This document shows positions 13,843-42,417 of a DNA stretch of 45,634 nt, one piece after another (positions within the stretch are counted from its first letter, which is position 1; each line of letters starts with the position of its first letter). Source of the stretch: a virus. Location: IMG/VR virus record IMGVR_UViG_3300043410_001254, positions 1 through 45,634 of that record; one strand, 5' to 3'. The notes under the pieces are model-generated. The model saw only the letters and a program-made list of their open reading frames with translations, had not been told where the DNA came from and ran no database searches. The translations under genes were made by a program, and so were the position numbers.

Positions 13843-13845
13843 ATA
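13838..13845 (+). promoter_or_regulatory. Late promoter overlapping the gene junction
   Basis: AATAAATACAGC overlaps the stop of the first amidoligase gene and ends four bases before the next ATG (13850). The predicted mRNA would begin at the start codon itself. No Shine-Dalgarno sequence is present. Confidence 0.65.
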
Positions 13846-13849
13846 CAGC

Positions 13850-15745
13850 ATGAGATTCGACCAAATTATTCAAGAAGAACAGTTAGACGAAGCCCGTATG
13901 GGCCAGTCTGACCTAGACACATTCATCAATAGCCCAGAAGCACAAGGTATCAAAGCAGGCTTTGAAGCGGAACTATGCTTTGTTGGTAAAGGTGGCGGCG
14001 GTTATGATGATAACAGTTACCCAGAAGCAGACTACGATACTGACGAGCGCACTGGCGATATTGATGATATCTGTCTCTTCTTTCATGATGGTGACTACAA
14101 TGGCCGCCGCGATATTCAATCCTTACGTGAGTCGCTACAAGAAGCATACTGGGAGTGGCGGGATGAACAGCTGGGTGATGCCTGGCACGAAGTACGTGAA
14201 GAAGTAGTGCGTGAATATATTGAAGAAAATGATTACACAGAAGATGATGAAATCGAAGCATATCTAAGAGACCACTTAGATTTAGAAGACGAAAAAGTAG
14301 ATGCTATTCTTGCTAGTGGCCCAGAAGACAAAGAACTATATGCTATCTACTTAGAAGCTGTTGATTATGCCAAAGATCAACTAGATGAACTAGTCAAACA
14401 ATCACTAGATGACCAAGACCGTAGCTATGAACTTGCCCGTGAAGAGTGGGAAGAAGCTCATTCGGATGAGTACGATGAACGTGAATGGTTACGAAGTGCT
14501 GGCTTACGTTACATGAGTGATGTTGAGCGTGAGTATGATATTCAATGGCCACACTATACGCATCCAGAAGCAAATGAAGAGGGCTTCAATGAAGAAAACG
14601 CTACTCAATTAGCTGATAGCTTACAGAATGATTTGAATGTTGAGGTAGTTGTTGGCGGTGGCTATCACAGTGTCAAGCGTACTCCAACACGTTGGATTAT
14701 CGAAGCTGATAGTAGCTTAGAGGCAGACAGTGGTGATATGCCAGCAGAAATTATTTCACCTCCAATGCCACTTGGTGAATGTCTACGCAAGATTCAAGAG
14801 TTCTTTATGTGGGCTGATAGTGAAGAAGCATATAGTAATGAATCAACAGGCTTCCACGTAGGCGTATCACTACCTCACGTTGATGGTCGTGTAGATTTTG
14901 TGAAACTAGCCCTATTCTTAGGTGACCAGTATGTACTAGATCAGTTCGGTAGAAGTAGTAACTACTACTGTAAGAGCGCATTTGATAAAATCAAGAATTC
15001 AGCACACACCGCTAACGTAGAGTCAGCATTTGAATTGATGCGTAAGGGCCTAATCGAACTAGCAACTAAGACACTCAAGCAAACTAGTGGCCATGGCAAG
15101 TATACTTCAATCAACATGAAGAATGACTATGTAGAGTTCCGCTCAATGGGTGCTGAGTATCACACTAAAGTACCTGAGATTATTGGTATGGTCAAGCGTT
15201 ACGCTTATGCTATGCACATTGCTGCTCGTCCAGATTTATTCCGTGATGAGTATGCTAAGAAGCTATATAAGATGTTGTCTCGTACTGCTGATGAAGATAG
15301 TGTAGCACTATTCTCTCGTTTCAGTAGTGGCAACTTATCTAAACAGGAACTAGTAGCACAACTCAAGGGTAGAAATCAAGAGCGACAAGCCCTGAAGCAG
15401 CCTGCTAATCAAAACGCATGGCAAATCTTCAATCGTTCTAACAACAGTGTAGCTGCCGAGTTCATCGCATCTAACGAGAATGTTGCCCGTCAGAAATTCC
15501 ATGATTACTTACAACAGCGTTCTCTAAACCCACTGAACTATATGCTACGTAGGGCAGTTGAGCCACAGAACACTGGTCAATTTACCGGCGAGTGGAAACT
15601 AGTAAACGCTGAAGGCAGAGAAGTTTATCGCTTTGGTGGTGTCGGCAACAGTCAAGCAAGTGCTAACGAAGTAGCTTCTCGTTGGTTACGTAGTCAGGGC
15701 GTCATTGACAGTTCCGAATATGATGTTCTACCGGTTATGGCATAA
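13850..15745 (+). CDS. Amidoligase-like protein, copy 2
   Basis: 631 residues from the ATG at 13850. The leader MRFDQIIQEEQLDEARM parallels that of copy 1, and the same motifs follow in order: GFEAELCF (near 42), WIIEADSSLEADSGD, AEIISPPM and STGFHVGVSLP (near 300-360), then VKLALFLGDQYVL. Between them is a very acidic helical insert (~75-250) rich in Asp and Glu, unlike copy 1. The frame is open to 13790 inside the previous gene, but the leader match and promoter favour 13850. A diverged paralogue that may act on a different substrate or as a partner. Confidence 0.8.
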   Translation: MRFDQIIQEEQLDEARMGQSDLDTFINSPEAQGIKAGFEAELCFVGKGGGGYDDNSYPEADYDTDERTGDIDDICLFFHDGDYNGRRDIQSLRESLQEAYWEWRDEQLGDAWHEVREEVVREYIEENDYTEDDEIEAYLRDHLDLEDEKVDAILASGPEDKELYAIYLEAVDYAKDQLDELVKQSLDDQDRSYELAREEWEEAHSDEYDEREWLRSAGLRYMSDVEREYDIQWPHYTHPEANEEGFNEENATQLADSLQNDLNVEVVVGGGYHSVKRTPTRWIIEADSSLEADSGDMPAEIISPPMPLGECLRKIQEFFMWADSEEAYSNESTGFHVGVSLPHVDGRVDFVKLALFLGDQYVLDQFGRSSNYYCKSAFDKIKNSAHTANVESAFELMRKGLIELATKTLKQTSGHGKYTSINMKNDYVEFRSMGAEYHTKVPEIIGMVKRYAYAMHIAARPDLFRDEYAKKLYKMLSRTADEDSVALFSRFSSGNLSKQELVAQLKGRNQERQALKQPANQNAWQIFNRSNNSVAAEFIASNENVARQKFHDYLQQRSLNPLNYMLRRAVEPQNTGQFTGEWKLVNAEGREVYRFGGVGNSQASANEVASRWLRSQGVIDSSEYDVLPVMA

Positions 15746-25346: not shown

Positions 25347-26828
25347 ATGATTGTACTTTTCAACGATAGTCCATTTTATCCTAACCGCAGTGTAGGTGTA
25401 TACAGAATAGCAACAGTTCTTCGCAGAGCCGGTTGTGAAGTAGAAGTGATTGATTTTTTAAGAGCATGGGAGTTAGATGGTCCTAAACAGTTCTTCAAAT
25501 ACTTAGACACTATCAAAGAAGTAGAATGGTGGGGATTCAGTAGCAAGTTCCCACTGACACCTGGTTTGATAATGGGTTCAACCCTACAAACAAAACTAGG
25601 TCAATCGGATGCTTTCTATTCATTTTCAACTAAAGAGTTTGAACAACGCTTAATCAATTACATCAGAGGTAGAAATGGCACGATTGTTGTAGGTGGTCCT
25701 AATGCTTACCCACTAAGAAAAGTAATACCAGCTACTCACGCTGATATCTTATGTGATGGTTATGCTGACAATGGTGTACTTGCTATCCATGACCACATTA
25801 TCAATCGTGGCCCACTAGTGTACGAGTGTGAAGGCTCATTCAAGATAGTAGATTGTAACAAAGACTACGGTGATATCGATTTGTCTAACATCGATGTTGA
25901 CTACGATAACACTGACTTCATTGGTTCTGACGAAATGTTCCCTGTTGAAATCACTAGAGGATGTATCTTCCAGTGTGCGTTCTGTACTCATACTCATACG
26001 GGCAAGAAAGCAGGTACGTACATTCGTAGTAAAGAGAGTATCAAAAAGGATATTGTCGACCGATACGAAAAGTACGGTAGCTTACAGTTCTCATTTGTCG
26101 ATGATACATTCAACGACAGTATCGAAAAGATGGAGATGATTGCCGAGATTCGTAGAGAGACTGACATACCATTCAAGTTCTGGAGTTACGGCAGACTAGA
26201 CTTACTACGCTCTCAACCTCGCATGGTTGAATTGATTGGTGAGACTGGATGGAGTAGTGTTACATTCGGTGTAGAAACATTCAATCGTAGCAGTGGTAAA
26301 GCAATCGGTAAAGGTGCTGACCCACAAAAGTTAAAAGACTTCCTCATCAAACTCAGAGAAACATATCCTGAGTTATTAGTTAGAGTGAACATTATCATTG
26401 GCTTACCTGATGATACTGAGGAGAGTGCGACAGATACAGTTCAATGGTTCTTAGACAATCCTGGAGTAGCAGATAAGGTGTCAATCAAGCCACTCGGTAT
26501 TTCTGAACGAGGCAGTAGACGAATCATTGGTAAGATTGGTGAGAACATTGCTCACTATGGCTACAAGGAACTACCAGAGAAGAGTACTCAGAATATATCA
26601 GCGCAGACAATCAACTGGGTCAATAAGAATTCCATGACACAGGAAGATGCTACTCGGATAGCAAAGAGATTACGCAATCTAATCAAGCAGGATCATAACA
26701 AGACCTCTATCCATTCTATGGGCCGTGGTATGATGGTAAGCGAAGATGGCGAGTCTAAGATATCAGAAGAAGACAAGCAACGAATTGTTGCTTATCTCAG
26801 AGCCAAGAAGCAATCAAGAGGGATTTAA
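25347..26828 (+). CDS. B12-binding-type radical SAM enzyme
   Basis: 493 residues. Residues ~1-160 resemble the cobalamin-binding domain of class B radical SAM enzymes (VVGGPNAYPLRKVIP). The iron-sulfur motif is C206-x3-C210-x2-C213 (GCIFQCAFC), followed by FVDDTFNDS, the VTFGVETFN motif and IIIGLPDDTEE, typical of the radical SAM barrel. Such enzymes use S-adenosylmethionine and a radical to methylate or rearrange substrates. Substrate unknown. It stands alone on this strand, tail-to-tail with the asparagine-synthase-like gene (stop codons share TTAA). Confidence 0.9.
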   Translation: MIVLFNDSPFYPNRSVGVYRIATVLRRAGCEVEVIDFLRAWELDGPKQFFKYLDTIKEVEWWGFSSKFPLTPGLIMGSTLQTKLGQSDAFYSFSTKEFEQRLINYIRGRNGTIVVGGPNAYPLRKVIPATHADILCDGYADNGVLAIHDHIINRGPLVYECEGSFKIVDCNKDYGDIDLSNIDVDYDNTDFIGSDEMFPVEITRGCIFQCAFCTHTHTGKKAGTYIRSKESIKKDIVDRYEKYGSLQFSFVDDTFNDSIEKMEMIAEIRRETDIPFKFWSYGRLDLLRSQPRMVELIGETGWSSVTFGVETFNRSSGKAIGKGADPQKLKDFLIKLRETYPELLVRVNIIIGLPDDTEESATDTVQWFLDNPGVADKVSIKPLGISERGSRRIIGKIGENIAHYGYKELPEKSTQNISAQTINWVNKNSMTQEDATRIAKRLRNLIKQDHNKTSIHSMGRGMMVSEDGESKISEEDKQRIVAYLRAKKQSRGI

Positions 26829-28060
26829 TACATTGGCCAGTCTATCTTGTAGTTTGATAGGTGGTGCTCATAATAACTCTTATCTGCTGTTAGGCGATAA
26901 ATCTTGTTGTAGTTTTCATCAAGGCCAATAGGATGTTCCTGTGAGTGTGCTACTAAATTATTTAGACTTTCTAATTTAGTCTTGAAATGAAACTGCCAAT
27001 CATTCTTTGTTAATTCATATATGTATTGACGTTGTGTGTGCTTATAGCTTTTGATAGTGTTACGAATCTTAGTGCCGTTATTGTTATTGACCATACTCCA
27101 TTGTTGTATCTCATGGCCGTTAAACCAATTCACTGATTTATCTAGTGACTCACGTACTGGTATAGTATTGTTATAAAACATACTACAGCGCACACTACAA
27201 TGTAAGTACTTGACATTGAAGATTAGCCACCAAAAGAAGTCATGTAAACTATTCACTGGTATGTTTTGGGTATTGATGTTGTGTACATACTTAGAATAGA
27301 GTAGAGATCCGAACTTATAATCATTCTTTCCCTGTAGAAACTTGATGATAATTTCTCTGTATCTACTGTAGTGTACGTCACCATCTGAGATTTTATCTCT
27401 AATAGCTAATAAATTTGATCTTACCTCCGGACTGAAATCCTTGATAAGACTATTGTAAGAATGATATAACTGTAGTCCTAGATGAGTACCGAAAATAGCA
27501 TCCCCCTCGTCACCGGTTATAGGTTGCCAACCATCAGTTATTAATCTATCATATCGTTGTGTGACACTATCGAACACTGTGAATTTATTATGAATAAATC
27601 TGGTGTAAAAATCATAATTCTCTAATAGGGAATGGACACTGGCATTTACTGCTACTGATTGTTGTTCTTCTTTATTTAAGTTTTTAATCAATGCTGTCAT
27701 AATAGCAGTACTGTCCATGCCGCCACTGAATAGTACAACAAATTTTTCACCTTTGTGGATTCTTGCTTTAATCTCCAGTGCTCTACGATCCATAACATCA
27801 GAGAAACTCAAACTAAAGTTTGGATCATATGTTGGCATCACAAAGTCAGGAATCATCTTGGAAGGCCATGGCAAACTCCATTCTCCCTCATTCCGAGAAA
27901 TAAATCTATTGTCTCCGAACCTCTCTGCTACATAGAACATGAATCTAGAATCATAAGACATATCAGCGAGTATTTCTGTCCAAAATGATCTACCAAAACT
28001 GATAGCCATGGCGCCCTCAAAGCGAATATTCTGATAAAAAAGAGCAGTATCTAAATTCAT
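26825..28060 (-). CDS. Asparagine-synthase-like ATP pyrophosphatase (no glutaminase domain)
   Basis: 411 residues. VVLFSGGMDSTAIMTALI near residue 111 is the PP-loop that binds ATP, and TGDEGDAIFG near 180 matches the second asparagine-synthase motif. The N-terminal glutaminase domain is absent, so it cannot release ammonia from glutamine itself; it may use free ammonia or an amine, as in cyclases and amide-forming enzymes. The gene is richer in A and T than its neighbours, suggesting recent transfer. Coupled (ATGA) to the unknown gene upstream. Confidence 0.8.
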   Translation of the reverse strand: MNLDTALFYQNIRFEGAMAISFGRSFWTEILADMSYDSRFMFYVAERFGDNRFISRNEGEWSLPWPSKMIPDFVMPTYDPNFSLSFSDVMDRRALEIKARIHKGEKFVVLFSGGMDSTAIMTALIKNLNKEEQQSVAVNASVHSLLENYDFYTRFIHNKFTVFDSVTQRYDRLITDGWQPITGDEGDAIFGTHLGLQLYHSYNSLIKDFSPEVRSNLLAIRDKISDGDVHYSRYREIIIKFLQGKNDYKFGSLLYSKYVHNINTQNIPVNSLHDFFWWLIFNVKYLHCSVRCSMFYNNTIPVRESLDKSVNWFNGHEIQQWSMVNNNNGTKIRNTIKSYKHTQRQYIYELTKNDWQFHFKTKLESLNNLVAHSQEHPIGLDENYNKIYRLTADKSYYEHHLSNYKIDWPMY

Positions 28061-28731
28061 CTTACTAATACTTCGCGGATTTTATCACGTATTTCTAACA
28101 TTCTTTTTGAATCGGAATTATTCCATATTCCCTCAATATTATTCTTTGCTTCTTCTATTGAATTACTAACATACATTACTCTCTTTAACTCATTTAAGAT
28201 TCCCTCGTCGTACATGCTATTATCATAACGAGAAGTTTTACCATTAATGATCTCGGGATCAAAAAATTCATCTGAGAAAGTTTTAGTGTCGAACTCAGCA
28301 CCAAATAATTTGAATATATGAATGAAAGTCATTTGTTCATGGACAAAATCAGTGTATTCTTTCAACTTTGATATCATTTTTTCTGTCTCTGGTTCATCTA
28401 TATCTTTCACTGGTCCAACAAATGTGAACTGAAGTGGGTTTTCAATAATTCTAGTGATTGGTGTTTGACCCTTAACTAGAATAGGTGAGCCTGATTTGTT
28501 TGAACCTGATTTATCAAAAATCATATATTCCATACAATTAAGATTGTTCATACCATTCGTGTTGTTTGGAGTAGCATAAACAACCGTAGCAATCTTAGAT
28601 GATAGAATATTTGCTGTTTCAAAAGTGATATTGATATCTACATCATCTACCAGCAAAAATCTATCAATGATTGACGCATAGATTACATTCTTTCGTCTTG
28701 CGCCAGTGTTATCAAAATAAAATGGGTTCAT
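28057..28731 (-). CDS. Unknown protein, partner of the AsnB-like gene
   Basis: 224 residues, A/T-rich, no recognised motif. Mixed alpha/beta start (RRKNVIYASIIDRFLLVDDV), ATPNNTNGMNNLNCMEYM in the middle, helical C-terminus. It overlaps both neighbours by ATGA, so it is translated in step with the ATP-pyrophosphatase-like protein and may supply its substrate or partner; this is inference from layout. Confidence 0.7.
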   Translation of the reverse strand: MNPFYFDNTGARRKNVIYASIIDRFLLVDDVDINITFETANILSSKIATVVYATPNNTNGMNNLNCMEYMIFDKSGSNKSGSPILVKGQTPITRIIENPLQFTFVGPVKDIDEPETEKMISKLKEYTDFVHEQMTFIHIFKLFGAEFDTKTFSDEFFDPEIINGKTSRYDNSMYDEGILNELKRVMYVSNSIEEAKNNIEGIWNNSDSKRMLEIRDKIREVLVR

Positions 28732-29807: not shown

Positions 29808-30494
29808 TCAGTCGTCCCCACCAGGTGCTACGCCAATGATTTGTAGCAAGTTAACAAAGATATTGATAAAGTCAAGATACAGGTTAAGTGCGCCCATGAT
29901 TTCGATGGCATAGTCATCGCCTTCCATGAGTTGTTCACGAATAGTTTGTGTATCGTAAGCAGTGAATCCCAAGAAGATAACAATAGCAATAGCACTGATG
30001 ACCATTTGAAAGATGGTACTGCCGATAAAGATATTGATAATACTAGCAATGATGATAGCGATTAGAGCAATGAATAAGAGTGGACCAAGTTCGGTCAAGT
30101 CTCGCTTAGTAAAGTAACCAACGATACTCATTGTGCCGAATAAGACAGCGGCACCCATGAATGCGGTAAATATACTACCTAGTGAGAATGTAACAAAGAT
30201 AGAACTCAGTGCTACACCCATAAGAGCGGAGAAGCCAGAGAGTACGGCAAATGCTCCGCCGAATCCAATGCCTGAACTAATAAGCGCTGGTACCATAAAC
30301 GAGAAGCCTAAGATGCCGATGAAGAGTGCGATTTGTACCCAGCCCTGTGTGAGTACTGCCATTGCGGCTGGTGAAGTGCCTAGTGTGTAACTAACAATCA
30401 TACTGATGATAGTTGCGATAGCCATGTGACTATACACACGAGCCATAGCGTTGTTAATGTCGCTAGCGGTTCTACTGAGAGTTTCTGTAAACAT
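29808..30494 (-). CDS. Bax inhibitor-1 (TMBIM/YccA) family membrane protein
   Basis: 228 residues from the ATG at 30494 (AAAGGAAAAACT before it), with seven hydrophobic segments and the family's C-terminal FLGFTAYDTQTIRE motif, where acidic residues act as a pH-sensing proton pair. The family forms calcium-leak channels; bacterial YccA inhibits the membrane protease FtsH. A phage copy could guard viral or host membrane proteins from FtsH, which would fit a virus that carries its own Clp system; this is inference. Own promoter at 30553-30581. Confidence 0.9.
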   Translation of the reverse strand: MFTETLSRTASDINNAMARVYSHMAIATIISMIVSYTLGTSPAAMAVLTQGWVQIALFIGILGFSFMVPALISSGIGFGGAFAVLSGFSALMGVALSSIFVTFSLGSIFTAFMGAAVLFGTMSIVGYFTKRDLTELGPLLFIALIAIIIASIINIFIGSTIFQMVISAIAIVIFLGFTAYDTQTIREQLMEGDDYAIEIMGALNLYLDFINIFVNLLQIIGVAPGGDD

Positions 30495-30504
30495 AGTTTT
30501 TCCT

Positions 30505-30657
30505 TTAAAGAATAAATGAGACGCCGACCGCAATCAGCGTTAGGTAGGTAACATTATACAACACCGCGTGGTTATTGTAAATGATTTCGGACATACTCCG
30601 CCCGTGGCGGTGTGGACAATCTCTGCCCTGTCGGCAGTCGTTATTACAGCAGGTCAT
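30505..30657 (-). CDS. Small Cys-rich membrane protein (50 aa)
   Basis: 50 residues: N-terminal Cys cluster (MTCCNNDCRQGRDCPHRHGR), then a hydrophobic tail (VLYNVTYLTLIAVGVSFIL). The ATG overlaps the upstream stop as ATGA, and AGGAG lies ten bases before. Similar CNxGRDCxC mini-proteins occur in phages. It contains the promoter of the next gene within its coding region. Confidence 0.75.
   Translation of the reverse strand: MTCCNNDCRQGRDCPHRHGRSMSEIIYNNHAVLYNVTYLTLIAVGVSFIL
30553..30581 (-). promoter_or_regulatory. Internal sigma70-type promoter of the Bax-inhibitor gene
   Basis: TTTACA (30581-30576), 17-base spacer, TATAAT (30558-30553), within the small Cys-rich gene. Confidence 0.65.
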
Positions 30658-31938: not shown

Positions 31939-32394
31939 TTATTCGTCGTGGGAGAACCATCTGGCCTTAATCTGACGCAGAATCTCAATAACTTCCTCAT
32001 CAGTCAACTCATGGTCCATAGTCTCGTCTAGAGAATTGATTGACCACTCGTCATTCTCAACATCATACCAGGCATAGACACACACCTCATCGGCTGGTCG
32101 GTGAATCAAACACCATGGAGACAATTCGTGAGGTGGGAACTCAAAGTCTTCGGTGCCGCTATCACGGTGAATAAACACGCAATAAGATTCCATGTTCTTA
32201 TTACCACGCTCCACATAGCGATACTCACCGTTCTCGTCTTCGTCTTCTAGGTCACCGTGACCATCAAATATGATTTTGACTGCGGGAATATCACTAATGT
32301 CTTCACCAATCTCTAGGTTATCACGGTCGATCCATGCTACATCTAGTAGCGATTGAACTACCTCATAGTACAAGTCGTAATCTAGTTCTTCCAT
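31939..32394 (-). CDS. Acidic unknown protein
   Basis: 151 residues from the ATG at 32394, which overlaps the stop of the MaoC gene (TAATG). Very acidic, with HGDLEDEDENGEYRYV in the middle and a helical end (LTDEEVIEILRQIKARW). No motif recognised. Last gene of the ClpP operon. Confidence 0.7.
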   Translation of the reverse strand: MEELDYDLYYEVVQSLLDVAWIDRDNLEIGEDISDIPAVKIIFDGHGDLEDEDENGEYRYVERGNKNMESYCVFIHRDSGTEDFEFPPHELSPWCLIHRPADEVCVYAWYDVENDEWSINSLDETMDHELTDEEVIEILRQIKARWFSHDE

Positions 32395-32813
32395 TATTTC
32401 ACCCAATGAGTTATAAATTCAGCAACAACTGCTGGCTTCTCCACACCTTCAATCTCAACTGTAAATTCAAAGTGAATGTTAGTGCCCGAACCCTTGTCTT
32501 CAATATCAAGTAGTTTGATGTGAGCACGAACACGACTATCGACAGGAATTGGTGACATAAATCGCACCCGATTGTATCCATAGTTTAGTGTGCGTGACGG
32601 ACGAGCGAGTGGTAGTTGTGGCTTCAATGAACGCAACCATTGGGGAAAGAATCCCACAATCATTAGTGCGTGTGCTAATGTCTTACCACCCGTCTTCTCG
32701 ATATCCACATGGATCCATTGATTGTCGCCAGTTAATTCGGCGAACCCGTTAATCATGTCCTGAGTGATTGTTCGCCAGTCGCTTGTGCCGACCATATCGC
32801 CTTTATTCAACAT
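32394..32813 (-). CDS. MaoC/NodN-type hotdog hydratase
   Basis: 139 residues, one hotdog domain. The family's catalytic pair is present as D30 and H35 in FAELTGDNQWIHVD, and TLAHALMIVGFFP matches the hydratase helix. Members add water to trans-2-enoyl-CoA to give (R)-3-hydroxyacyl-CoA. It sits in the ClpP operon, overlapping the small membrane gene upstream. The product would suit the FabG-like dehydrogenase at 36264; whether they share a pathway is inference. Confidence 0.85.
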   Translation of the reverse strand: MLNKGDMVGTSDWRTITQDMINGFAELTGDNQWIHVDIEKTGGKTLAHALMIVGFFPQWLRSLKPQLPLARPSRTLNYGYNRVRFMSPIPVDSRVRAHIKLLDIEDKGSGTNIHFEFTVEIEGVEKPAVVAEFITHWVK

Positions 32814-32989: not shown

Positions 32990-33610
32990 TCACTCTCTCC
33001 GCTCAATCACGCGGTCAGCCAAGCCCCACTGAACTGCTTCTTCGGCTGATAGGAATGTGTCGAACTTCATAGCTGAGAACATTTCTTCGTAGGTTTTACC
33101 GGCAGTGTTGTGCTTGACATACAACTTGGTAAGTACTTCATTGACACGCTGAGATTCTTCAAACGAACGCTTAGCATCTTCGAATTGTAGTTCTTGTACA
33201 TGAACGCTACCCTTGGTGCCGGGCGTACCAGAACTAACACGGTGAATCATAGTACGACTCTGTGGCAGTACCAAACGCTTACCGGCAGTGCCAGCTTGTG
33301 CCAAGAATGAGCCCATAGAACACGCTTGACCCATAACGATAGTTGATACATCACACTTGATGAACTGCATGGTATCATAGATTGATAGACCAGCACTAAC
33401 ACTACCACCAGGTGAGTTAATGTAGAAGTTGATATCCTTATCCGGATTCTCGGCCTCTAAGAATAGCAACTGTGCTACGATAACAGATGCCGAACGCTCG
33501 TTAACATCATCATGTAGCATAACTACACGGTCACGAAGTAGACGGGAATAAATGTCGTAAGAACGCTCACCTTTAGAGGTTTGCTCGACTACCATTGGGA
33601 TTAAACTCAT
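32990..33610 (-). CDS. clpP: ClpP protease subunit, copy 1
   Basis: 206 residues, the usual ClpP length. The serine-protease triad is complete: Ser in [14 protein letters not shown], His in [10 protein letters not shown], Asp in [38 protein letters not shown] forms the oxyanion and active-site strand. ClpP forms a 14-subunit chamber fed by ClpX or ClpA. The ATG overlaps the stop of the second ClpP gene (ATGA), so the two subunits are made together and may form mixed rings. Confidence 0.95.
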
Positions 33611-34230
33611 TTTACTTTCACTTTCTTTGCGGTTGGTTTTTGGGTTTGTGGTTGATTAGGATACGCAATCTTATCACAGATGCCTAGTTTGAGTGCTTCG
33701 TTAGCATCTAGCCAACGGTCTTGCGCGGGTAGTAAGAACTCTTTGATTTTAGCATCGCTTAGATGCGTACAGCTACGATAGTGTTCGAGCATACGCTTTT
33801 GTGTTAGGTCATACTCACGCACTGTTGCGAATAGTTCGTGCGCTTTGCCCTCGTTTGCCCATGAGAACTGATGAGAGAGAATAGATGTGTTCGGTGTCAA
33901 TACACGACGACCTTTAGTGCCGGTCATAAAGATTAGTAAGCCACTTGATGCGATTTGACCTAGGCCGACCGTTTTGATTGGGATGTTGCTTGAACGCATC
34001 ACATCGATAAGAGCGAATGCTGAGGCTAATTCACCACCCTCACTACAAATCATTAACAGTAACTCTTGCTTACGTTCGGCAACTGGTACTACATAGTTTT
34101 GTTCAAGGATCCATTCGATGACAGGCGCAATACTATCCGCATCAACTTCGTCCATGAATACATACATACCACAGTCTTGTAGTGATGGCAGACCGCCGCC
34201 ACCCTTATCGCCAATATCGTCACTTGCCAT
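33607..34230 (-). CDS. ClpP-like protease subunit, copy 2
   Basis: 207 residues from the ATG at 34230 (AAGGACACCT before it). Diverged ClpP fold: [18 protein letters not shown], Ser in [14 protein letters not shown], His in [10 protein letters not shown], and Asp in [13 protein letters not shown], so the triad seems intact. The C-terminus is a Lys/Pro/Gln tail. The frame is open to 34314; an ATG at 34251 lies seven bases after the promoter -10 element and would be leaderless. Being so unlike copy 1, it may give a hetero-oligomer with altered docking or specificity. Confidence 0.9.
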
Positions 34231-34258
34231 AGGTGTCCTTGTTTTAGTCATAGAGTCT

Positions 34259-34287
34259 ATTATACACGAGACAGAATGAAAACACAA
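34259..34287 (-). promoter_or_regulatory. Promoter of the ClpP operon
   Basis: TTGTGT (34287-34282), 17-base spacer, TATAAT (34264-34259), seven bases before an in-frame ATG (34251). The -35 is weak. Confidence 0.65.
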
Positions 34288-34324
34288 GTCTTTTTGGAGA
34301 AATATTTTGACCAAATGCGAGGGG

Positions 34325-34700: not shown

Positions 34701-34718
34701 TTGGTTTAACCAATCAAT

Positions 34719-34746
34719 AAAAAACCGGCCTTTGTGCCGGTTTTTT
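34719..34746 (+). terminator. Strong Rho-independent terminator
   Basis: A-run, CCGGC stem with a CTTTGT loop, GCCGG, then six T. Next to it TTGGTTtaACCAA (34701-34713) forms another small hairpin. Confidence 0.9.
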
Positions 34747-34765
34747 ATTACATCATTACCATCAA

Positions 34766-34773
34766 AATAAATA
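34766..34773 (+). promoter_or_regulatory. Late promoter of the ligase-dehydrogenase-BKACE operon
   Basis: AATAAATAATC, seven bases before the ATG at 34781. No TTGACA-type promoter is seen upstream, and a strong terminator separates it from the previous gene, so this is the only visible promoter of the operon. The predicted leader is about two bases long. Confidence 0.7.
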
Positions 34774-34780
34774 ATCAACT

Positions 34781-36256
34781 ATGCTAAGAGAAGTAGACAA
34801 AGACTTAAAGTTCGAAGAGAACAAATTTAGGAATAAAGTTGCGATAATTGACTATCACGATAATCCTCTTGGTATACCGCGATCAATTACCTTCAGACAA
34901 CTATCATTTTATAATAGTTCTGTTGCTAGAAAATTACTATCATCTGGTTACAAAGAGGGAGATAGAATAGCAATCGTGGGCCTAAATTCATTTAAATTTG
35001 TAGCAGTGTATCTAGGTGCCAGATTAGCTGGAATGACTCCTGTGGTTATTAACCACAAGTTATCAAAATCACAAATAGAACATGTTATCAATCACAGTGA
35101 ATCAAAATTGGTATTTCATGATGATGAGTTCTTATCTTTACTGCCTGATTCTATAGACAAAGTTAACTTTAATAAATTTGATAGATGGGTTGAATTTAGA
35201 ACTGAAGTTATGAGATATGAATATGATGGTGAAAGGCTAGCTCTTATGCTCTATACTAGTGGTTCAACGGGTTCACCGAAATGTGTTGCTATAAAAACAA
35301 AAAACAGAATATGGGGTGTAAAAAGTTTAACTGGATATCCTGTCACCGCACGATCAATCCTAGCTCAACCATTAAGTCATATTAATGGATTAAATGCTCT
35401 TGAAGCTAGTCTAATGAATAAGTCTTCGATTGTTATTACTCCAAAATTTTCAGTTGAATCGTATCGACATGCCATTTTTGATAGTAACGTATCTCGTGTT
35501 GTTGCTATTCCTCCGATGATGGCCATGCTATTAGAGGATGAAAAAAATATGCATGATATGAAACATTCAAATGTCAAACTAGTCACTCTATCCGGGGCTC
35601 CTACTAGTGAAGGTTTGTATGATAGAATAGCAAAAGCTTTCCCTCAGGCGGTAGTTCGTGTTGCTTATGGTATGAGTGAGATAGGGCCTGGAGTATTTAC
35701 CATTCATAAGACACTACCTACACCTAAATTATCAGTCGGAATACAACGTGATGATCTTCAATACAAAATGATTGATGATGTCTTATGGATTAAAACTCCA
35801 GGATTATTCAGTGGGTATTACAAAGATTCAGAGAAAACACGTTCCGTGTACGATGACGATGGATTCTTCAACACCCGAGATAAATTTAGAATAGATGAAA
35901 ATGGATTCTACTTCTTTATTGGTCGTGCTGATGATATGTTTGTTAGTGGTGGTGAGAATATCTATCCTGGCGAGGTGGAGGAGATTCTTAACAGTCATCC
36001 ATGTGTTAGAGAATCTTGTGTTATTAGTTTAGAAGATGACATCAAAGGCACAAAGGCATATGCTTTTGTCATTATGGATGGCGAAGCAACGGAAAAGGAA
36101 ATCATGGATTACTATGCCACACATGGACCAGCCTATCAAATTCCTCGTAGAATCTGGCCACTCGAAAGATTTCCACTAACACACATTAGTAAAGTAGATA
36201 AGCGAGAGTTAGTTGAACTCGCTAAAAAATTATTAGAAGACTCAGAGGAACAATAA
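34781..36256 (+). CDS. AMP-forming acid/acyl-CoA ligase
   Basis: 491 residues, full-length ANL-superfamily adenylating enzyme. Motifs in order: LMLYTSGSTGSPK (P-loop, ~156), RVAYGMSEIGPG (A5), FFNTRDKFRI (the usual TGD is TRD; Asp kept), FFIGRADDMFVSGGENIYPGEVE (hinge), and HISKVDKREL with the catalytic Lys near the end. It should activate a carboxylic acid with ATP and transfer it to CoA or another thiol. A/T-rich compared with its neighbours, suggesting acquisition. First gene of a three-gene late operon. Confidence 0.9.
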   Translation: MLREVDKDLKFEENKFRNKVAIIDYHDNPLGIPRSITFRQLSFYNSSVARKLLSSGYKEGDRIAIVGLNSFKFVAVYLGARLAGMTPVVINHKLSKSQIEHVINHSESKLVFHDDEFLSLLPDSIDKVNFNKFDRWVEFRTEVMRYEYDGERLALMLYTSGSTGSPKCVAIKTKNRIWGVKSLTGYPVTARSILAQPLSHINGLNALEASLMNKSSIVITPKFSVESYRHAIFDSNVSRVVAIPPMMAMLLEDEKNMHDMKHSNVKLVTLSGAPTSEGLYDRIAKAFPQAVVRVAYGMSEIGPGVFTIHKTLPTPKLSVGIQRDDLQYKMIDDVLWIKTPGLFSGYYKDSEKTRSVYDDDGFFNTRDKFRIDENGFYFFIGRADDMFVSGGENIYPGEVEEILNSHPCVRESCVISLEDDIKGTKAYAFVIMDGEATEKEIMDYYATHGPAYQIPRRIWPLERFPLTHISKVDKRELVELAKKLLEDSEEQ

Positions 36257-36263
36257 GTAAGAT

Positions 36264-37025
36264 ATGAATACTTTCTCAAGACTACAAAATTTAAGCGGTA
36301 AAGCGGCTGTCATCACTGGTGTCGCGGGGCAAGTTGGCTTTGCTACGGCTATTAGATTGGCCGAACAGCAATGTAGAATAATTGGTATTGTTAGAAGCAA
36401 AGAGCAAGAAGCAATAGACAGATTTACTACATTACCAAATCAACACCTTAACCATCAGGTACTTGTTGCTGATGTGACTGACTCTAGTACACTAGAAGCG
36501 ATTCGTAGTAAAATAGATCGCTGTGATATTCTAGTGAATAGTGCTGGTATCACCAAGAATATCTTTCCTGAATTCACAGATCAGCTAACAGATGAGATTT
36601 TCGATTCAATCGTTACTACTAACTTACGAGGTACATGGGCATGTATTCGAACATTCTTGCCTCTACTTCGTGCTACAGGCGACGGGTTGATTGTAAATGT
36701 ATCGAGTACATCTGCCGAACGTAGTGGCAGAGGTAACGTAGCATATGCCGCTTCTAAGGGTGGGGTGAATATCATGACAAAGACATTGAGTCGAGTACTT
36801 GCTCCAGATGGCGTTCGCATCGTCGCGGTGGCTCCAGGATTTCTAGAGGAATCTACAAGCGGCGTTCAGAAGAGTAAAGCAATGACTGAGAAACAAGCGG
36901 CGAGTGTACCGATTGGCCGTATTGGGTATGGCGATGACATCGCTAGTACAATAGAAGCTCTATGTACCCATATTCGTTATGCTAACGGGAGCATTATTTT
37001 AGTTGATGGAGGCAGAACAGTATGA
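36264..37025 (+). CDS. Short-chain dehydrogenase/reductase (FabG-like)
   Basis: 253 residues, classical SDR. Nucleotide-binding TGVAGQVG near residue 18, NSAGITKN, catalytic Ser in IVNVSSTSAE, and YAASKGG with the catalytic Tyr and Lys near 160; the end ANGSIILVDGG is typical of FabG relatives. It should interconvert a 3-hydroxy and 3-keto acyl group using NAD(P). It starts seven bases after the ligase and ends in an ATGA overlap with BKACE. Confidence 0.9.
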   Translation: MNTFSRLQNLSGKAAVITGVAGQVGFATAIRLAEQQCRIIGIVRSKEQEAIDRFTTLPNQHLNHQVLVADVTDSSTLEAIRSKIDRCDILVNSAGITKNIFPEFTDQLTDEIFDSIVTTNLRGTWACIRTFLPLLRATGDGLIVNVSSTSAERSGRGNVAYAASKGGVNIMTKTLSRVLAPDGVRIVAVAPGFLEESTSGVQKSKAMTEKQAASVPIGRIGYGDDIASTIEALCTHIRYANGSIILVDGGRTV

Positions 37026-37888
37026 AGACGATTCTTACTTGCGCTATTACAGGCGCCGGAACTACTCCAGAACAAACACCATATCTACCAATTACACCAC
37101 AGCAAATAGCGCAATCGGCATTAGAGGCTGCCGATGCTGGCGCAGCCGTTGTACACATTCACGTTAGAGACTTAGTAACAGGTAGACCATCTATGAATTT
37201 GGACTACTACAAAGAAACCTTAGATATTATCAAGGCTAAGAACACTGATGTGCTAATCAACCTAACAACTGGTCCGGGCAGTACCGGTCCTGCTGATGTT
37301 GTATTTGGTAACAAGTATCCTAACTTTCAACCAGCTGAGAATCGTACTCGTCATGTCGTAGCACTTAAACCTGATATCTGTTCACTAGATTTGAATACAA
37401 TGAATCGTGGACCTAAGCAGATTACAGTAAACACTATTGATACTTGTCGTCAGATGATTAAGCTAGTTCAGGCAGCTGGAGTTAAGCCTGAACTGGAAAT
37501 CTTTGATAGTGGTGATATGGCTATTGCTAAAATGTTTATTGAAGATGGTACACTTACTGGCACCCCTCTATGGCAAATTGCTACTGGTGTTAAATGGGGC
37601 TGGATAGGCACACCTGGTACCCTAGAGTACGCTAAGTCATTACTGCCTCGTGATGCTATTTGGTATGCGTTCGGCACAGGTGCGGCCGAAATGCCATTCG
37701 TTGCCCTATCTACAATCAGTGGCGGTCATGCTCGTGTAGGTTTAGAAGACAATATTTACTTAGAGAAGGGTGTATTAGCAAAGACTAACGCCGAGTTAGT
37801 AGGAAAGGCAGTACGAATTATAAGAGAACTGGGTAATGAACCGGCCACTCCTAGTGAAGCAAGACAAATATTACAGTTGGGCAAATAA
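37022..37888 (+). CDS. Beta-keto acid cleavage enzyme (BKACE, DUF849)
   Basis: 288 residues, full length for the family. Zinc ligands H45 and H47 lie in VVHIHVRD, followed by INLTTGPG, ELEIFDSGDM and the C-terminal GLEDNIYL with the third-ligand Glu. BKACEs condense a beta-keto acid with acetyl-CoA and split it into acetoacetate and a new acyl-CoA; the first known case is 3-keto-5-aminohexanoate in lysine fermentation. The dehydrogenase before it could make the keto acid, and the ligase could handle the CoA ester. Last gene of the operon, followed by a hairpin terminator. Confidence 0.92.
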   Translation: MKTILTCAITGAGTTPEQTPYLPITPQQIAQSALEAADAGAAVVHIHVRDLVTGRPSMNLDYYKETLDIIKAKNTDVLINLTTGPGSTGPADVVFGNKYPNFQPAENRTRHVVALKPDICSLDLNTMNRGPKQITVNTIDTCRQMIKLVQAAGVKPELEIFDSGDMAIAKMFIEDGTLTGTPLWQIATGVKWGWIGTPGTLEYAKSLLPRDAIWYAFGTGAAEMPFVALSTISGGHARVGLEDNIYLEKGVLAKTNAELVGKAVRIIRELGNEPATPSEARQILQLGK

Positions 37889-37890
37889 AT

Positions 37891-37910
37891 AAGGGACCGC
37901 AAGGTCCCTT
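37891..37910. terminator. Hairpin terminator between convergent genes
   Basis: AAGGGACC-gcaa-GGTCCCTT, stem like that at 632-649. It lies between BKACE and the end of clpS and may serve both strands. Confidence 0.7.
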
Positions 37911-37930
37911 ATCGTTGTCTCCTCGAACTA

Positions 37931-38230
37931 TTATTCAGATTCGATTTTTACTTTTAGTGGATAGCCTTGATTCTGGGCATCAAGTGTTACCTCAATACCC
38001 TTCTGCTCGGCAATCTCGTGAGGTAGTACGGCCACAACAGCACTACCACTTACATGAATCTCCTGTGTAATATCGATAGCACTAGATTCAGTGTGGTCGA
38101 AATAGTCTACCAGGCTACTGACAACGAAATCCATCGTTGTTACATCATCATTTAGATAGATGACTTTGTACATCTTTGGATTACGAAGTTTTAAATTTGG
38201 TTTGATTGTTACTTTTGTTGCTGTGGACAT
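37931..38230 (-). CDS. clpS: ClpS N-end-rule adaptor
   Basis: 99 residues. Core matches ClpS: MYKVIYLNDDVTTMDFVV with the NDD and Met that hold the N-terminal residue of the substrate, EIHVSGSAVVAVL with the pocket His, HEIAEQKG, and GYPLKVKIE. In bacteria ClpS brings proteins with bulky N-terminal residues to ClpA. No ClpA is encoded here, so it may serve the host ClpAP or bind the viral ClpX. GGAGGAAGT precedes the ATG; the promoter is a perfect early one overlapping a late-type element. Confidence 0.92.
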   Translation of the reverse strand: MSTATKVTIKPNLKLRNPKMYKVIYLNDDVTTMDFVVSSLVDYFDHTESSAIDITQEIHVSGSAVVAVLPHEIAEQKGIEVTLDAQNQGYPLKVKIESE

Positions 38231-38252
38231 ACTTCCTCCATTGTTATAATAA

Positions 38253-38286
38253 TATTTATTATACTATCAATTAAACTTGATGTCAA
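38253..38286 (-). promoter_or_regulatory. Overlapping early and late promoters of clpS
   Basis: TTGACA (38286-38281), 17-base spacer, TATAAT (38263-38258); the -10 runs into AATAAATA (38260-38253), a late-type element. The -35 lies in the last codons of hsp20. Confidence 0.75.
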
Positions 38287-38707
38287 TGCTCTTTGGAGCA
38301 TGACTTTCCGGAACAATTCGCTTGAGGCCGATACTGAGTATGCCGTTCTCGACTTTTGCTCCTTGAACTTCCACATGCTCAGCAAGAGTGAATTCCTTTT
38401 TAAAAGAACGATCACTAATGCCTTTGTGTAGATATTCAACTGGCACATCGAGTTGTGGTTTCTCGCCGGTAATGGTCAAGATGTTGCGGGCAACTTCAAT
38501 GCCAACCTCACCTTCGCCAAAACCAGAGACTGCTAACTGAATCACAAAGTCATCCTCGTCTAACTTAATAATGTTATATGGAGGATAGTTTGTCTGTTGT
38601 GACTCAGTTATACGCATCAATTCAGCCATCATGCCATCGAAGCCGATACCGAACTTGTGTACGGTAGGGATATCAAGTGCTCTGAGAGTTAGTGTACGAC
38701 CGGTCAT
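38267..38707 (-). CDS. Small heat-shock protein (Hsp20/IbpA type)
   Basis: 146 residues from the ATG at 38707; AAGGAGG at the end of dnaK serves as ribosome-binding site. Alpha-crystallin domain ~35-130: NYPPYNIIKLDEDDFVIQLA, ERS-type RSFKKEFTLAEHVEVQGA, ENGILSIGLKR, and a C-terminal PKSIDIKF with the IxI motif. It holds unfolded proteins for DnaK. Directly behind dnaK in the same transcript, an arrangement that suits joint action. Confidence 0.92.
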   Translation of the reverse strand: MTGRTLTLRALDIPTVHKFGIGFDGMMAELMRITESQQTNYPPYNIIKLDEDDFVIQLAVSGFGEGEVGIEVARNILTITGEKPQLDVPVEYLHKGISDRSFKKEFTLAEHVEVQGAKVENGILSIGLKRIVPESHAPKSIDIKFN

Positions 38708-38708
38708 C

Positions 38709-40595
38709 TTACACCTCCTTAACTTCGGCTTCAACTACGCCATCGTCTTTTGCTTTAGCAGATTCAGCGTCAGCGTCAGCTTGGGCTTTCTTGTTGATTT
38801 CAGCGTAGATAGGCGCGGCTGCTTCGTAGACTTTAGTAAGTGCGTTGTTGATAGCTTCTGGGTCTTCACCCTTCATTGCTTGCTCTAGGGCACTGACAGC
38901 ATCATCAAAGTTAGCACGGTCTTCGTCACTAATCGTTTCTTCTGCCGCATCACGCTTGAGGTTAGCTAGTGCGCCCTCTGCTTGATTACGTGCTTCGATT
39001 AGTGTGCGTTGCTTCTTATCAGCTTCGGCATTTAACTCAGCGTCTTTGACCATTTGCTCGATTTCAGCATCAGTCAAGCCACTATCTGATTTGATAGTGA
39101 TGTTGTTTGCTTTGCCAGTGCCCTTGTCTGTAGCACTAATCTTCATAATGCCGTTAGCGTCGATATCGAATGTAACTTCAATCTGTGGTTGACCACGACG
39201 AGCGGGTGCGATACCATCTAGTTTGAACTCGCCTAGAAGTTTGTTGTACTTGAACAACTCACGCTCACCCTGTGCTACTTTGATATCAACTGCTGGTTGA
39301 TTGTCTTCGGCAGTAGAGAATGTTTGTGACTTCTTGGTAGGGATAGTAGTGTTCTTCTCAATCATCTTAGAGAATACACCGCCCATAGTTTCGATACCTA
39401 GCGATAGTGGGGTAACGTCAAGTAGTAGAACGTCGGTACGATCACCTGCTAGTACACTACCTTGAATAGCGGCACCTGCGGCAACTGCTTCGTCTGGGTT
39501 AACATCCTTACGTGGTGCTTTACCGAACAACTTCTCAACTGCTTCTTGTACCTTAGGCATACGGGTCTGACCACCGACCAAGATAACTTCGTCAATGTCA
39601 CTGTTACTTACGCCAGCATCCTTCATAGCAGTGCGGCATGGTGCTAGTGAACGCTCGATTAGTTCGTCAACTAGTGATTCGAACTTAGCACGAGTTAGCT
39701 TCACGTTGAGGTGCTTAGGACCACTAGCGTCTGCTGTAACATATGGTAGGTTAACGTCAGTCTGTTGAGAAGATGATAGTTCAATCTTGGCCTTCTCAGC
39801 CGCTTCTTTGAGGCGTTGTAGTGCGAGTACATCTTTACTCAAGTCTACACCACTTTCTTTCTTGAACTCAGTGATGAGATAATCCATGATACGTTGGTCG
39901 AAGTCTTCACCACCTAAGAAGGTGTCACCGTTTGTACTTAGAACTTCGATTTGCTTATCGCCGTCGATATCCGCGATTTCAATGATTGATACGTCGAATG
40001 TACCACCACCAAGGTCGTAAACAGCAACTTTGCGGTCACCTTTAGTAGCTTTATCAACGCCATACGCAAGAGCAGCCGCAGTAGGCTCGTTAATAATACG
40101 GAGTACTTCCAAGCCTGCGATTTTGCCAGCGTCCTTAGTCGCTTGTCTTTGGCTATCATTAAAGTACGCAGGTACTGTGATAACTGCCTGAGTAACTTCA
40201 TGTCCTAGATAATCCTCTGCTGTTTGTTTCATTTTACGTAACACTTCCGCACTGATTTGTGGAGGTGCTAGTTCTTTGTCTTGTGCTTTTACCCATGCGT
40301 CACCGTTCTTTGCTTCCATGATAGCATAAGGCATTAGGTCAATGTCCTTCTGTACCGCGTCTTCTTTGAACTTACGTCCAATTAGTCGCTTAGATGCGTA
40401 GATAGTGTTTTTGGGGTTTGTAACGCTCTGTCGTTTGGCTGATGCGCCAACTAAGATTTCGTCTGGTGTGTATGCTACGATACTAGGTGTGGTTCTTGCG
40501 CCTTCACTGTTCTCGATTACTTTGACTTGACCGTTTTCAATAACGGCTACACACGAATTTGTTGTACCGAGGTCGATACCGATTACTTTGCTCAT
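38709..40595 (-). CDS. dnaK: DnaK (Hsp70) chaperone
   Basis: 628 residues from the ATG at 40595 (AAGGAG before it), close to the normal ~640. [14 protein letters not shown], the linker [19 protein letters not shown], the substrate domain and a C-terminal EVKEV end (bacterial EEVXD-like) are all present; [11 protein letters not shown] and [10 protein letters not shown] are intact, so it should be active. The sequence resembles betaproteobacterial DnaK. No DnaJ or GrpE gene is in the window, so host co-chaperones would be used. A late promoter and a possible early one lie upstream, with a hairpin in the leader. Confidence 0.96.
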
Positions 40596-40624
40596 ATTTT
40601 TCTCCTTAAAAAGCAAGATTTTAA

Positions 40625-40647
40625 TTGTAGACCCGAAGCATCTACAA
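40625..40647 (-). promoter_or_regulatory. Leader hairpin of dnaK
   Basis: Stem TTGTAGA/TCTACAA; the minus-strand loop contains CTTCGG, a stable UUCG tetraloop. Just 30 bases before the dnaK ATG, it may protect the mRNA or act as a temperature-sensitive structure. Confidence 0.5.
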
Positions 40648-40650
40648 AAA

Positions 40651-40700
40651 TATTTATCCCTAGTATCAGGGATAATATGCTACTATTTTACAAGTAGCAA
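40651..40700 (-). promoter_or_regulatory. Late promoter and possible early promoter of dnaK
   Basis: GATAAATA (40658-40651) is a good late element. Further up, TTGCTA (40700-40695), 17 bases, TATTAT (40677-40672) could be a weak early promoter. ATCCCT/AGGGAT (40656-40673) forms an inverted repeat between the two. Confidence 0.6.
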
Positions 40701-41150
40701 TTCTAATTCTTCCAATACTGCTGATGATATGGACCGGATGCTTATAGCATTGACCCATTTATCACAGGTGTTCCCTACACTATGATAATATTTGCCTGGC
40801 GAGAATATAATCGCCTCACCTTCACGAATCACGACATCCTCAAATAACACGGCATTATCTTCTGTGAGAGTCGGCACACCATGTCTGCCGCTAGGAGCAC
40901 TTTGTGTACCAGTTAGTGATTTGTTCAGAGGATTGAATAGTTTCAGTGACAAGTCACCATGACCAACTGGACAGAATAGTATGGTCCATGGAATTTTAAT
41001 ATCTTCTGAATTTATATCACGATGAATTACTGTGGTAGAATATGGTGGTAACCAGGCTTGTAGAGTTGATACTTTATGACGTATTGACAATAAGCCCATC
41101 TCCGCTAACCAAGGATTCTGACTATCACCTTCAAATGAGGTAACTGTCAT
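40683..41150 (-). CDS. Putative cupin/2-oxoglutarate dioxygenase-fold protein
   Basis: 155 residues from the ATG at 41150 (CAGGTAATGAA before it); the frame is open to 41216 inside clpX. Metal-site pattern of double-stranded beta-helix enzymes: H-R-D in STTVIHRDINSED, and a distal His in SPGKYYHSVGN followed by WVNAISIRS with the Arg that binds 2-oxoglutarate in such oxygenases. It may hydroxylate a protein or small molecule. The assignment rests on these short motifs. Confidence 0.55.
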   Translation of the reverse strand: MTVTSFEGDSQNPWLAEMGLLSIRHKVSTLQAWLPPYSTTVIHRDINSEDIKIPWTILFCPVGHGDLSLKLFNPLNKSLTGTQSAPSGRHGVPTLTEDNAVLFEDVVIREGEAIIFSPGKYYHSVGNTCDKWVNAISIRSISSAVLEELELLLVK

Positions 41151-41178
41151 TTCATTACCTGGCCTAGGGCACAGATAA

Positions 41179-42417
41179 TTAACCGGCGGCAGATTTATTT
41201 TTCTTACTAGGAACATCTACTAACAATTCAGGAGTATCTACCAACGCTTTAGTGATGGTAATTTTCTTAATGCCACTGTTCTTGTACTGTTGTACGTGGT
41301 ACATATGATCCAGTAGCACACGCTCAATCTCACTGTGTAAGCCACGAGCGCCAGTCTTCATCTTCAAACAATTCTCTGCGATTTGCTCGATAGCATCGGC
41401 TGAGAACTCTAGTTCAATGTTGTCAAGACCCAAGAGGTAAACATACTGGGCGATATAACTGTTCTTTACATCGGTTAAGATTTGAATCAACTGTTCTTTA
41501 GACAACTCAGTGATGTGAACACGAGTAGTAAAACGGCCAGTGAATTCAGGAATCATGCCGAATGAAGTCAAGTCGTCTGGTGTCAACTTGCCCATGTACT
41601 GTTCTTTTTGCTTGGCTTTGTCTTTGAGTTTACTGTTGAAGCCAATGCCGTGTCCATCTTCACGACGGGCGATAATGTCTTCGATACCAACGAACGCACC
41701 GCCAGCGATAAACAGGATATCAGTAGTATCAACTTCAAGCATATCCGAGCCAGGGTTCTTACGACGGCCACTCTGTGGAATGCGGCAGTGTGTGCCTTCT
41801 ACCAACTTGAGTAGTGCTTGCTGTACACCTTCGCCACTAACATCACGAGTAATCGAAGTTGATTCCGACTTACGGGCAATCTTATCAATTTCGTCAATGA
41901 AGATAATACCGCGTTGTGCCCGCTCAATATCACCATCAGCGGCGGCTACCAACCTGACAATCATTGATTCAACATCATCGCCAACATAGCCAGCTTCCGT
42001 TAATGAAGTAGCATCAGCAACCACAAACGGAACATCCAAGTACTTAGCAACTGTTTTAGCAAGCAAGGTCTTACCGCTACCAGTTGGGCCTAGTACGAGT
42101 ACGTTGGCCTTCTGTACAGTTAGATTCTCTGACTTGTGATTGATACGCTTGTAATGGTTAGCAACTGCGACACTAAACACCATCTTAGCACGGTCTTGAC
42201 CAATGATATACTGGTCTAAGAACGCTTTGATATCATCGGGATATAGTGAACTCTCCTTAACAGCTTGGGCCATATCAGGATCGTCTTTAAGCAAGTCTGT
42301 ACATAGTTCAATACAGTCGCTACAGATAGCGGTGCCATCGCCAACGATAAGTTTCTTGACGACATCCTTATGCTTGCCGCAGAACGAACACTCTTTAATT
42401 TTGTGGATTTCACTCAT
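41179..42417 (-). CDS. clpX: ClpX AAA+ unfoldase
   Basis: 412 residues, about normal size. Zinc-binding domain with C10/C13 and C32/C35; Walker A GPTGSGKT at 110-117; pore loop AGYVGDD; Walker B IIFIDEIDKIA; sensor region and C-terminal domain present. The IGF loop that docks to ClpP is kept (HGIGFNSK). The RKH loop that helps select substrates reads RKN here (GRRKNPGSD). ClpX unfolds proteins and feeds them to ClpP. No Shine-Dalgarno sequence is seen; strong early promoter at 42449-42477. Confidence 0.96.
   Translation of the reverse strand: MSEIHKIKECSFCGKHKDVVKKLIVGDGTAICSDCIELCTDLLKDDPDMAQAVKESSLYPDDIKAFLDQYIIGQDRAKMVFSVAVANHYKRINHKSENLTVQKANVLVLGPTGSGKTLLAKTVAKYLDVPFVVADATSLTEAGYVGDDVESMIVRLVAAADGDIERAQRGIIFIDEIDKIARKSESTSITRDVSGEGVQQALLKLVEGTHCRIPQSGRRKNPGSDMLEVDTTDILFIAGGAFVGIEDIIARREDGHGIGFNSKLKDKAKQKEQYMGKLTPDDLTSFGMIPEFTGRFTTRVHITELSKEQLIQILTDVKNSYIAQYVYLLGLDNIELEFSADAIEQIAENCLKMKTGARGLHSEIERVLLDHMYHVQQYKNSGIKKITITKALVDTPELLVDVPSKKNKSAAG

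Follow-up and report, generated by a model that had tools for sequence, protein, structure and literature searches.

A virus-borne operon in IMG/VR virus record IMGVR_UViG_3300043410_001254, which comes from a large aquatic phage and is analysed here over its whole length of 45,634 bp (the window), encodes three enzymes in a row: an acyl/aryl-coenzyme A (CoA) ligase-type adenylate-forming enzyme of the ANL superfamily (LIG), a FabG-like classical short-chain dehydrogenase/reductase (SDR) and a beta-keto acid cleavage enzyme-type protein (BKACE, also DUF849). The enzymes are intact and conserved, their order recurs among viral loci, two of them are fused in some of these loci, and the operon is an accessory part of the genome that carries it. 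Its best explanation, which we consider reasonably probable as a whole, is a virus-specific accessory metabolic unit of three co-translated enzymes that would turn a small hydroxy or keto acid into CoA thioesters during infection.

Three intact enzymes in one operon

LIG (34781-36256, 491 aa), SDR (36264-37025, 253 aa) and BKACE (37022-37888, 288 aa) are full-length open reading frames (ORFs) on the + strand, with a 7-bp gap between LIG and SDR and a 4-bp overlap between SDR and BKACE. LIG contains both the N- and the C-terminal AMP-binding domains (AMP-binding, PF00501, 1.3e-49; AMP-binding_C, PF13193, 2.2e-12) with their signature motifs YTSGSTGSPK, YGMSE, GRADDMFVSGGE and the C-terminal Lys, and its nearest solved relatives are MenE (5buq/5x8f). 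SDR matches PF13561 (1.3e-42) and keeps the catalytic N-S-Y-K residues (NSAG, Ser, YAASK); its glycine motif TGxxxGxG reads TGVAGQVG, with Gln in place of the middle Gly, and several other viral SDRs are also variant there. BKACE matches PF05853 end to end (5.5e-92, 308 bits, residues 2-286 against profile positions 1-274 of 274). Its residues His45, His47, Glu242, Glu159, Arg238 and Asp243 are intact and invariant in 15 of 15 viral sequences, so that the His-His-Glu Zn ligands and the catalytic Arg/Glu/Asp are those of canonical BKACE-family enzymes, while Phe replaces their Tyr. We considered this Phe as a mark of chemistry like that of BsfD, the best-scoring solved relative of BKACE, and rejected it, as Phe is found in 104/104 bacterial relatives compared.

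The preliminary description of this DNA, made from the sequence alone, had called the three enzymes intact. This holds for their length, their domains and their catalytic motifs; judged by the sequence motifs, catalytic residues are kept in all three, the glycine motif of SDR being a variant.

Recurrence among viruses

A search for viral BKACEs with a single sequence returned 13 loci and a profile search 39; the counts out of 40 refer to these 39 loci plus the window, several of the 40 being near-copies. At 95% identity the viral BKACEs, that of the window included, form 26 clusters. SDR lies directly 5′ of BKACE in 32/40 loci, and LIG, SDR and BKACE follow one another in this order as separate genes in 21/40. 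In three others (L293, L294 and L295) LIG and SDR are fused into one 721-aa ORF that is followed by BKACE with a 4-bp overlap, both domains of the L293 fusion being confirmed by Pfam. The trio is thus found again and again among viral sequences. LIG was present in 11/21 and SDR in 17/21 BKACE loci, and each of them in 0/77 DctP-centred loci without BKACE (Fisher tests for association with BKACE loci, 3e-9 for LIG and 1e-15 for SDR, p-values that near-copies make optimistic).

On the 345-kb record G694 the operon is found together with a T4-type gp23 major capsid gene, the cassette thus belonging to the genome of a T4-like jumbo phage. INPHARED yielded 0 matches to BKACE, and its matches to SDR and LIG mostly look, from record names and features, like bacterial contigs labelled as phage.

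Origin and selection

The final BKACE tree comprised 26 viral clusters and 23 bacterial sequences, a misaligned long-branch bacterial row (L116) having been left out. All viral BKACEs group in a single clade with an SH-aLRT support of 99.7; its sister group consists of Burkholderiales sequences, and the enzymes of bacterial SDR-BKACE operons lie outside it. The nearest bacterial BKACEs are 53-58% identical. Freshwater Burkholderiales and Variovorax contribute the larger part of them, and an SDR gene immediately precedes most. The nearest bacterial SDR is up to 48% identical. In an SDR-only search of 301 bacterial genomes the only five matches below 1e-50 all adjoin a BKACE gene, so the SDR-BKACE unit appears orthologous as a pair; the SDR tree itself is poorly resolved. 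Seven viral LIGs form one clade (support 99) with a single bacterial sister in a 121-genome search, and the LIG of L007/L014, which falls outside this main viral clade, was rejected as an ortholog. These phylogenies and gene neighbourhoods suggest that the SDR-BKACE pair descended from Pseudomonadota operons, the nearest being those of freshwater Burkholderiales, and that the ligase was added in the viral lineage. A viral TctC gene beside BKACE in L007 is a weak candidate for the captured end of such an operon, since TctC also follows DctP in other phages.

BKACE is the slowest-changing of the three proteins: LIG, SDR and BKACE are 55, 55 and 83% identical between L003 and L004, and 54, 52 and 84% between L231 and L237. 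It is under strong purifying selection, with ratios of nonsynonymous to synonymous substitution rates (dN/dS) of 0.08 (L003-L004) and 0.04 (L231-L237); in many other pairs silent substitutions have reached saturation. Together with the recurrent order, the 4-bp overlaps and the LIG-SDR fusion in L293-L295, this selection bears out the earlier view that the three genes act as one functional unit.

An accessory insert

Two ClpP genes and a MaoC-like gene are encoded left of the operon, on the opposite strand, and ClpS, HSP20, DnaK and ClpX right of it; the two ClpP genes and the genes on the right make up a phage Clp/chaperone block (32990-34314 and 37931-42417). In phage L015, a close relative by its ClpX, DnaK and HSP20 (93%, 83% and 81% identical to those of the window), the order is ClpX-DnaK-HSP20-ClpS-hairpin-Lys/Ala-rich ORF-ClpP2-ClpP1, and LIG-SDR-BKACE is absent. 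The Lys/Ala-rich protein gene and the hairpin on the ClpS side are approximately 20 bp apart in L015 but 3.2 kb apart in the window (34701-37888). Because of this empty site we regard the cassette as an accessory insert with clean borders, not as host DNA joined in assembly. The site and the many viral contigs that carry the cassette together dispose of the concern, raised in the preliminary description, that the operon might be a host contaminant. The ClpS-ClpP interval varies among the relatives L015, L016 and L017, and looks like a cargo site.

Flanking hairpins and promoter

A terminator hairpin with a T-run (34720-34746, + strand; AAAAACCGGC-CTTTGT-GCCGGTTTTTT), found by reading the sequence and missed by a simple terminator scan, separates the Lys/Ala-rich membrane protein gene from LIG. 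BKACE and ClpS converge, and the hairpin that separates them (37889-37912; −21 kcal/mol, z −4.96) is without a T-run on the + strand. L015 has a similar one where its empty site borders on ClpS; for both reasons we assign the hairpin to the ClpS side.

The T4-type late promoter described before LIG is borne out in part only. The whole window contains no exact copy of the T4 late element TATAAATA, against 3.2 copies expected by shuffles. The late-promoter-like AATAAATA (34766-34773, + strand), with one mismatch to it, lies 15 nt before the LIG ATG, an awkward distance that would make the mRNA nearly leaderless. In its favour, AATAAATA is a variant of ATAAATA, the most enriched 7-mer upstream of window genes (9 against 0.58 expected, p ~1e-8), and perfect copies of TATAAATA precede the operons of L264 (at −27) and L285 (at −12). 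Several other relatives have TAAATA at −10 to −39, and in related viral loci the octamers most enriched before genes are motifs related to ATAAATA. A late-type promoter before LIG, if not the textbook element, is plausible on these motifs, and the operon may be expressed late. To call it the only visible promoter was too strong, since a weak sigma-70-like site (ATTACA-17-AATAAT, 9/12) overlaps AATAAATA. Across the window, ATAAATA(C) stands upstream of nine genes as a late-promoter-like motif, its commonest form being GATAAATA and not TATAAATA.

A putative CoA-thioester pathway and its rivals

From the families to which the enzymes belong, SDR would convert a short 3-hydroxy acid into the matching 3-keto acid or the reverse. 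The Zn-dependent BKACE would exchange acetyl between the keto acid and acetyl-CoA, yielding acetoacetate and a new acyl-CoA, and LIG, at the cost of ATP and CoA, would re-activate a free acid, either the released acetoacetate or the substrate. The CoA thioester might then go into energy or lipid metabolism, or serve a modification reaction. A precedent exists in deoxyribonate oxidation, in which an SDR makes a beta-keto acid that a BKACE cleaves with acetyl-CoA (Price et al. 2019, PMC6365646). The acetoacetate formed there needs activation by a CoA-transferase or CoA-synthetase (PMC6365646), a role that LIG could fill by analogy. Annotated bacterial relatives have layouts that look catabolic, such as LysR-SDR-BKACE-substrate-binding protein and dioxygenase-SDR-BKACE-zinc dehydrogenase-cupin. 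It is on this precedent and on these operons that we base our preference for a pathway yielding CoA thioesters. SDR-BKACE operons of Burkholderiales and Rhizobiales (of the type LysR-SDR-BKACE-zinc dehydrogenase-cupin-TctC) resemble that of the window in having SDR directly 5′ of BKACE, but no ligase was recognised in them, and the window cassette is without LysR, zinc dehydrogenase and cupin. We do not favour dehydrocarnitine as the substrate: an SDR accompanies the nearest bacterial BKACEs, and loci whose gene layout, judged by ORF sizes, looks carnitine-type belong to a different clade.

Several observations weigh against this scheme, or against a simple oxidative reading of it. BKACE occurs without LIG or SDR nearby in phages L284, L287, L288, L290 and L292, and the LIG-SDR fusion would suit a ligase product handed to SDR at the CoA level, with no direct path to BKACE. 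Where its nearest bacterial partners carry Asp-Arg, at the end of strand beta-2, the SDR of the window carries Val-Arg, and viral SDRs mostly have a hydrophobic residue followed by Arg; loss of the Asp at this cofactor site hints at NADP(H) and possibly at reduction, opposite to the oxidative reading. None of the three enzymes reaches any NCBIfam curated cut-off shown (BKACE scores 239 bits against 382 for the Kce model, and is thus not a Kce equivalog), so that no substrate can be named from sequence. Furthermore, BsfD C-acetylates instead of cleaving, an indication that chemistry in the BKACE family can differ (PMC12871164). A biosynthetic, acyl-donating role is thus a serious rival, if in our estimate a rather unlikely one. 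BKACE would supply acetoacetate or a two-carbon-extended keto acid, LIG would make its CoA ester and SDR would reduce this with NADPH to a 3-hydroxyacyl-CoA; a MaoC enzyme may dehydrate it, and the acyl group would serve to modify some component of phage or host, such as a glycan or a nucleic acid. What makes this rival serious is the Val-Arg of SDR, the fusion, and the operon extensions in L283 (2OG-Fe(II) oxygenase, methyltransferase and MaoC genes downstream) and L231 (an overlapping operon that also includes genes for a Rieske protein and a PP-loop ATPase). LIG and SDR also diverge faster than BKACE, as if products varied. On the other hand, the annotated bacterial operons look catabolic, no acyltransferase was identified, and the PP-loop neighbours also occur without the cassette. 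A wider reading, speculative and in our estimate rather unlikely, is that large phages carry their own evolving small-molecule route. In it the LIG-SDR-BKACE core, sometimes with LIG and SDR fused, would be joined by MaoC, methyltransferases and Fe-dependent oxygenases, by PP-loop and ATP-grasp enzymes, and by a DctP-like protein that binds carboxylates and lacks a leader. Together they would produce a CoA-activated acyl group that modifies phage or host molecules.

Catabolism of deoxyribonate itself would make SDR a 2-deoxy-D-ribonate dehydrogenase and BKACE a ketodeoxyribonate cleavage enzyme, with carbon drawn from the oxidised deoxyribose of degraded host DNA. It is the sole genetically established SDR and BKACE pathway found in the literature searched (PMC6365646), the two locus tags are consecutive in P. 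simiae (PS417_07245/07250), and Amidohydro_2 genes, possible lactonases, lie near BKACE in L041 and L114. The viral cassette nevertheless differs in having a ligase, and no lactonase, MFS transporter, glycerate kinase or deoxyribose dehydrogenase was recognised beside it. Lytic phages, moreover, generally reuse deoxynucleotides, and we consider this explanation very unlikely. Least credible is that the operon brings no benefit, as selfish or newly captured cargo, or that it is contamination from assembly. Its absence from the close relative L015 would fit such cargo, but the data on selection and recurrence already contradict it: dN/dS is 0.04-0.08, the gene is retained in 26 BKACE clusters, the order and the fusion are conserved, and the sites are intact.

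Neighbouring genes and viral DctP homologues

The MaoC-like hydratase/dehydratase gene of the window (32394-32813, − strand; PF01575, 5.8e-12) is not adjacent to the operon; in L272, L283 and L286 homologues follow LIG-SDR-BKACE on the strand of the operon, and the enzyme is a possible further member of the pathway. A PP-loop (SGGMDST) ATPase-like protein is encoded at 26825-28060 (− strand), and its homologue follows BKACE in L231/L289 together with a homologue of the gene at 28057-28731. This gene pair is conserved near DctP in many phages, with or without BKACE (L231, L289, L269, L285, L188, L216 and L219). We count the PP-loop gene as part of the wider neighbourhood, and at most as a candidate for the pathway. 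An AlphaFold model of the 26825 protein gave weak PP-loop-type matches, and that of the 28057 protein was poor (predicted local distance difference test, pLDDT, 40). Elsewhere in the window, 29808-30533 encodes a Bax1-I (BI-1-like) membrane protein (PF01027, 7e-49), and two adjoining large ORFs with weak matches to Amidoligase_2 (PF12224) lie downstream of a lysin-like gene (11674-15745).

DctP (PF03480) was found in 11/14 records searched, all 11 of them among the 13 related ones, and 384 viral loci with DctP homologues were confirmed, often with two copies per phage. Carriers include L003, L004, L006-L008, L014 and L154-L233 (for example, L006:8928-9899 and L231:7980-8936). The viral proteins start at M..KIRW(V/L)(I/L)AHEP, keep a GLAFTYSGGYR motif and are predicted to be cytosolic carboxylate-binding proteins. 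A link between the cassette and TRAP substrate uptake was rejected, the viral DctPs being without a signal peptide and mostly without BKACE nearby. In L011 (8907-9869, − strand), and also in L010, L012, L013 and L292, TAATAAATG divides DctP into two successive ORFs, which may be a two-cistron binding protein or the result of a recent break.

Implications for phage metabolism

As a rule, the metabolic genes of phages are single ones that resemble host genes and relate to photosynthesis, nucleotides or phosphate. Large aquatic phages with auxiliary metabolic genes, such as the pmoC phages (PMC7674155), likewise carry host-like metabolic genes on large genomes; what sets the window cassette apart is a three-enzyme, virus-clade-specific operon with a gene fusion. 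A term search of the pmoC phage paper (PMC7674155) returned no match for CoA-ligase. The preliminary description knew of no phage module of this kind, and none was found in the literature searched, most subscription journals lying outside that search; the virus-borne LIG-SDR-BKACE operon is thus likely to be new among known phage auxiliary metabolic genes. With the trio present in dozens of viral sequences, viruses would seem to have retained a small acid pathway that depends on CoA, and to have remodelled it. If this reading is true, a conserved, virus-clade-specific three-enzyme keto-acid/CoA operon with a viral gene fusion would mean that large phages assemble and maintain carbon pathways of their own.

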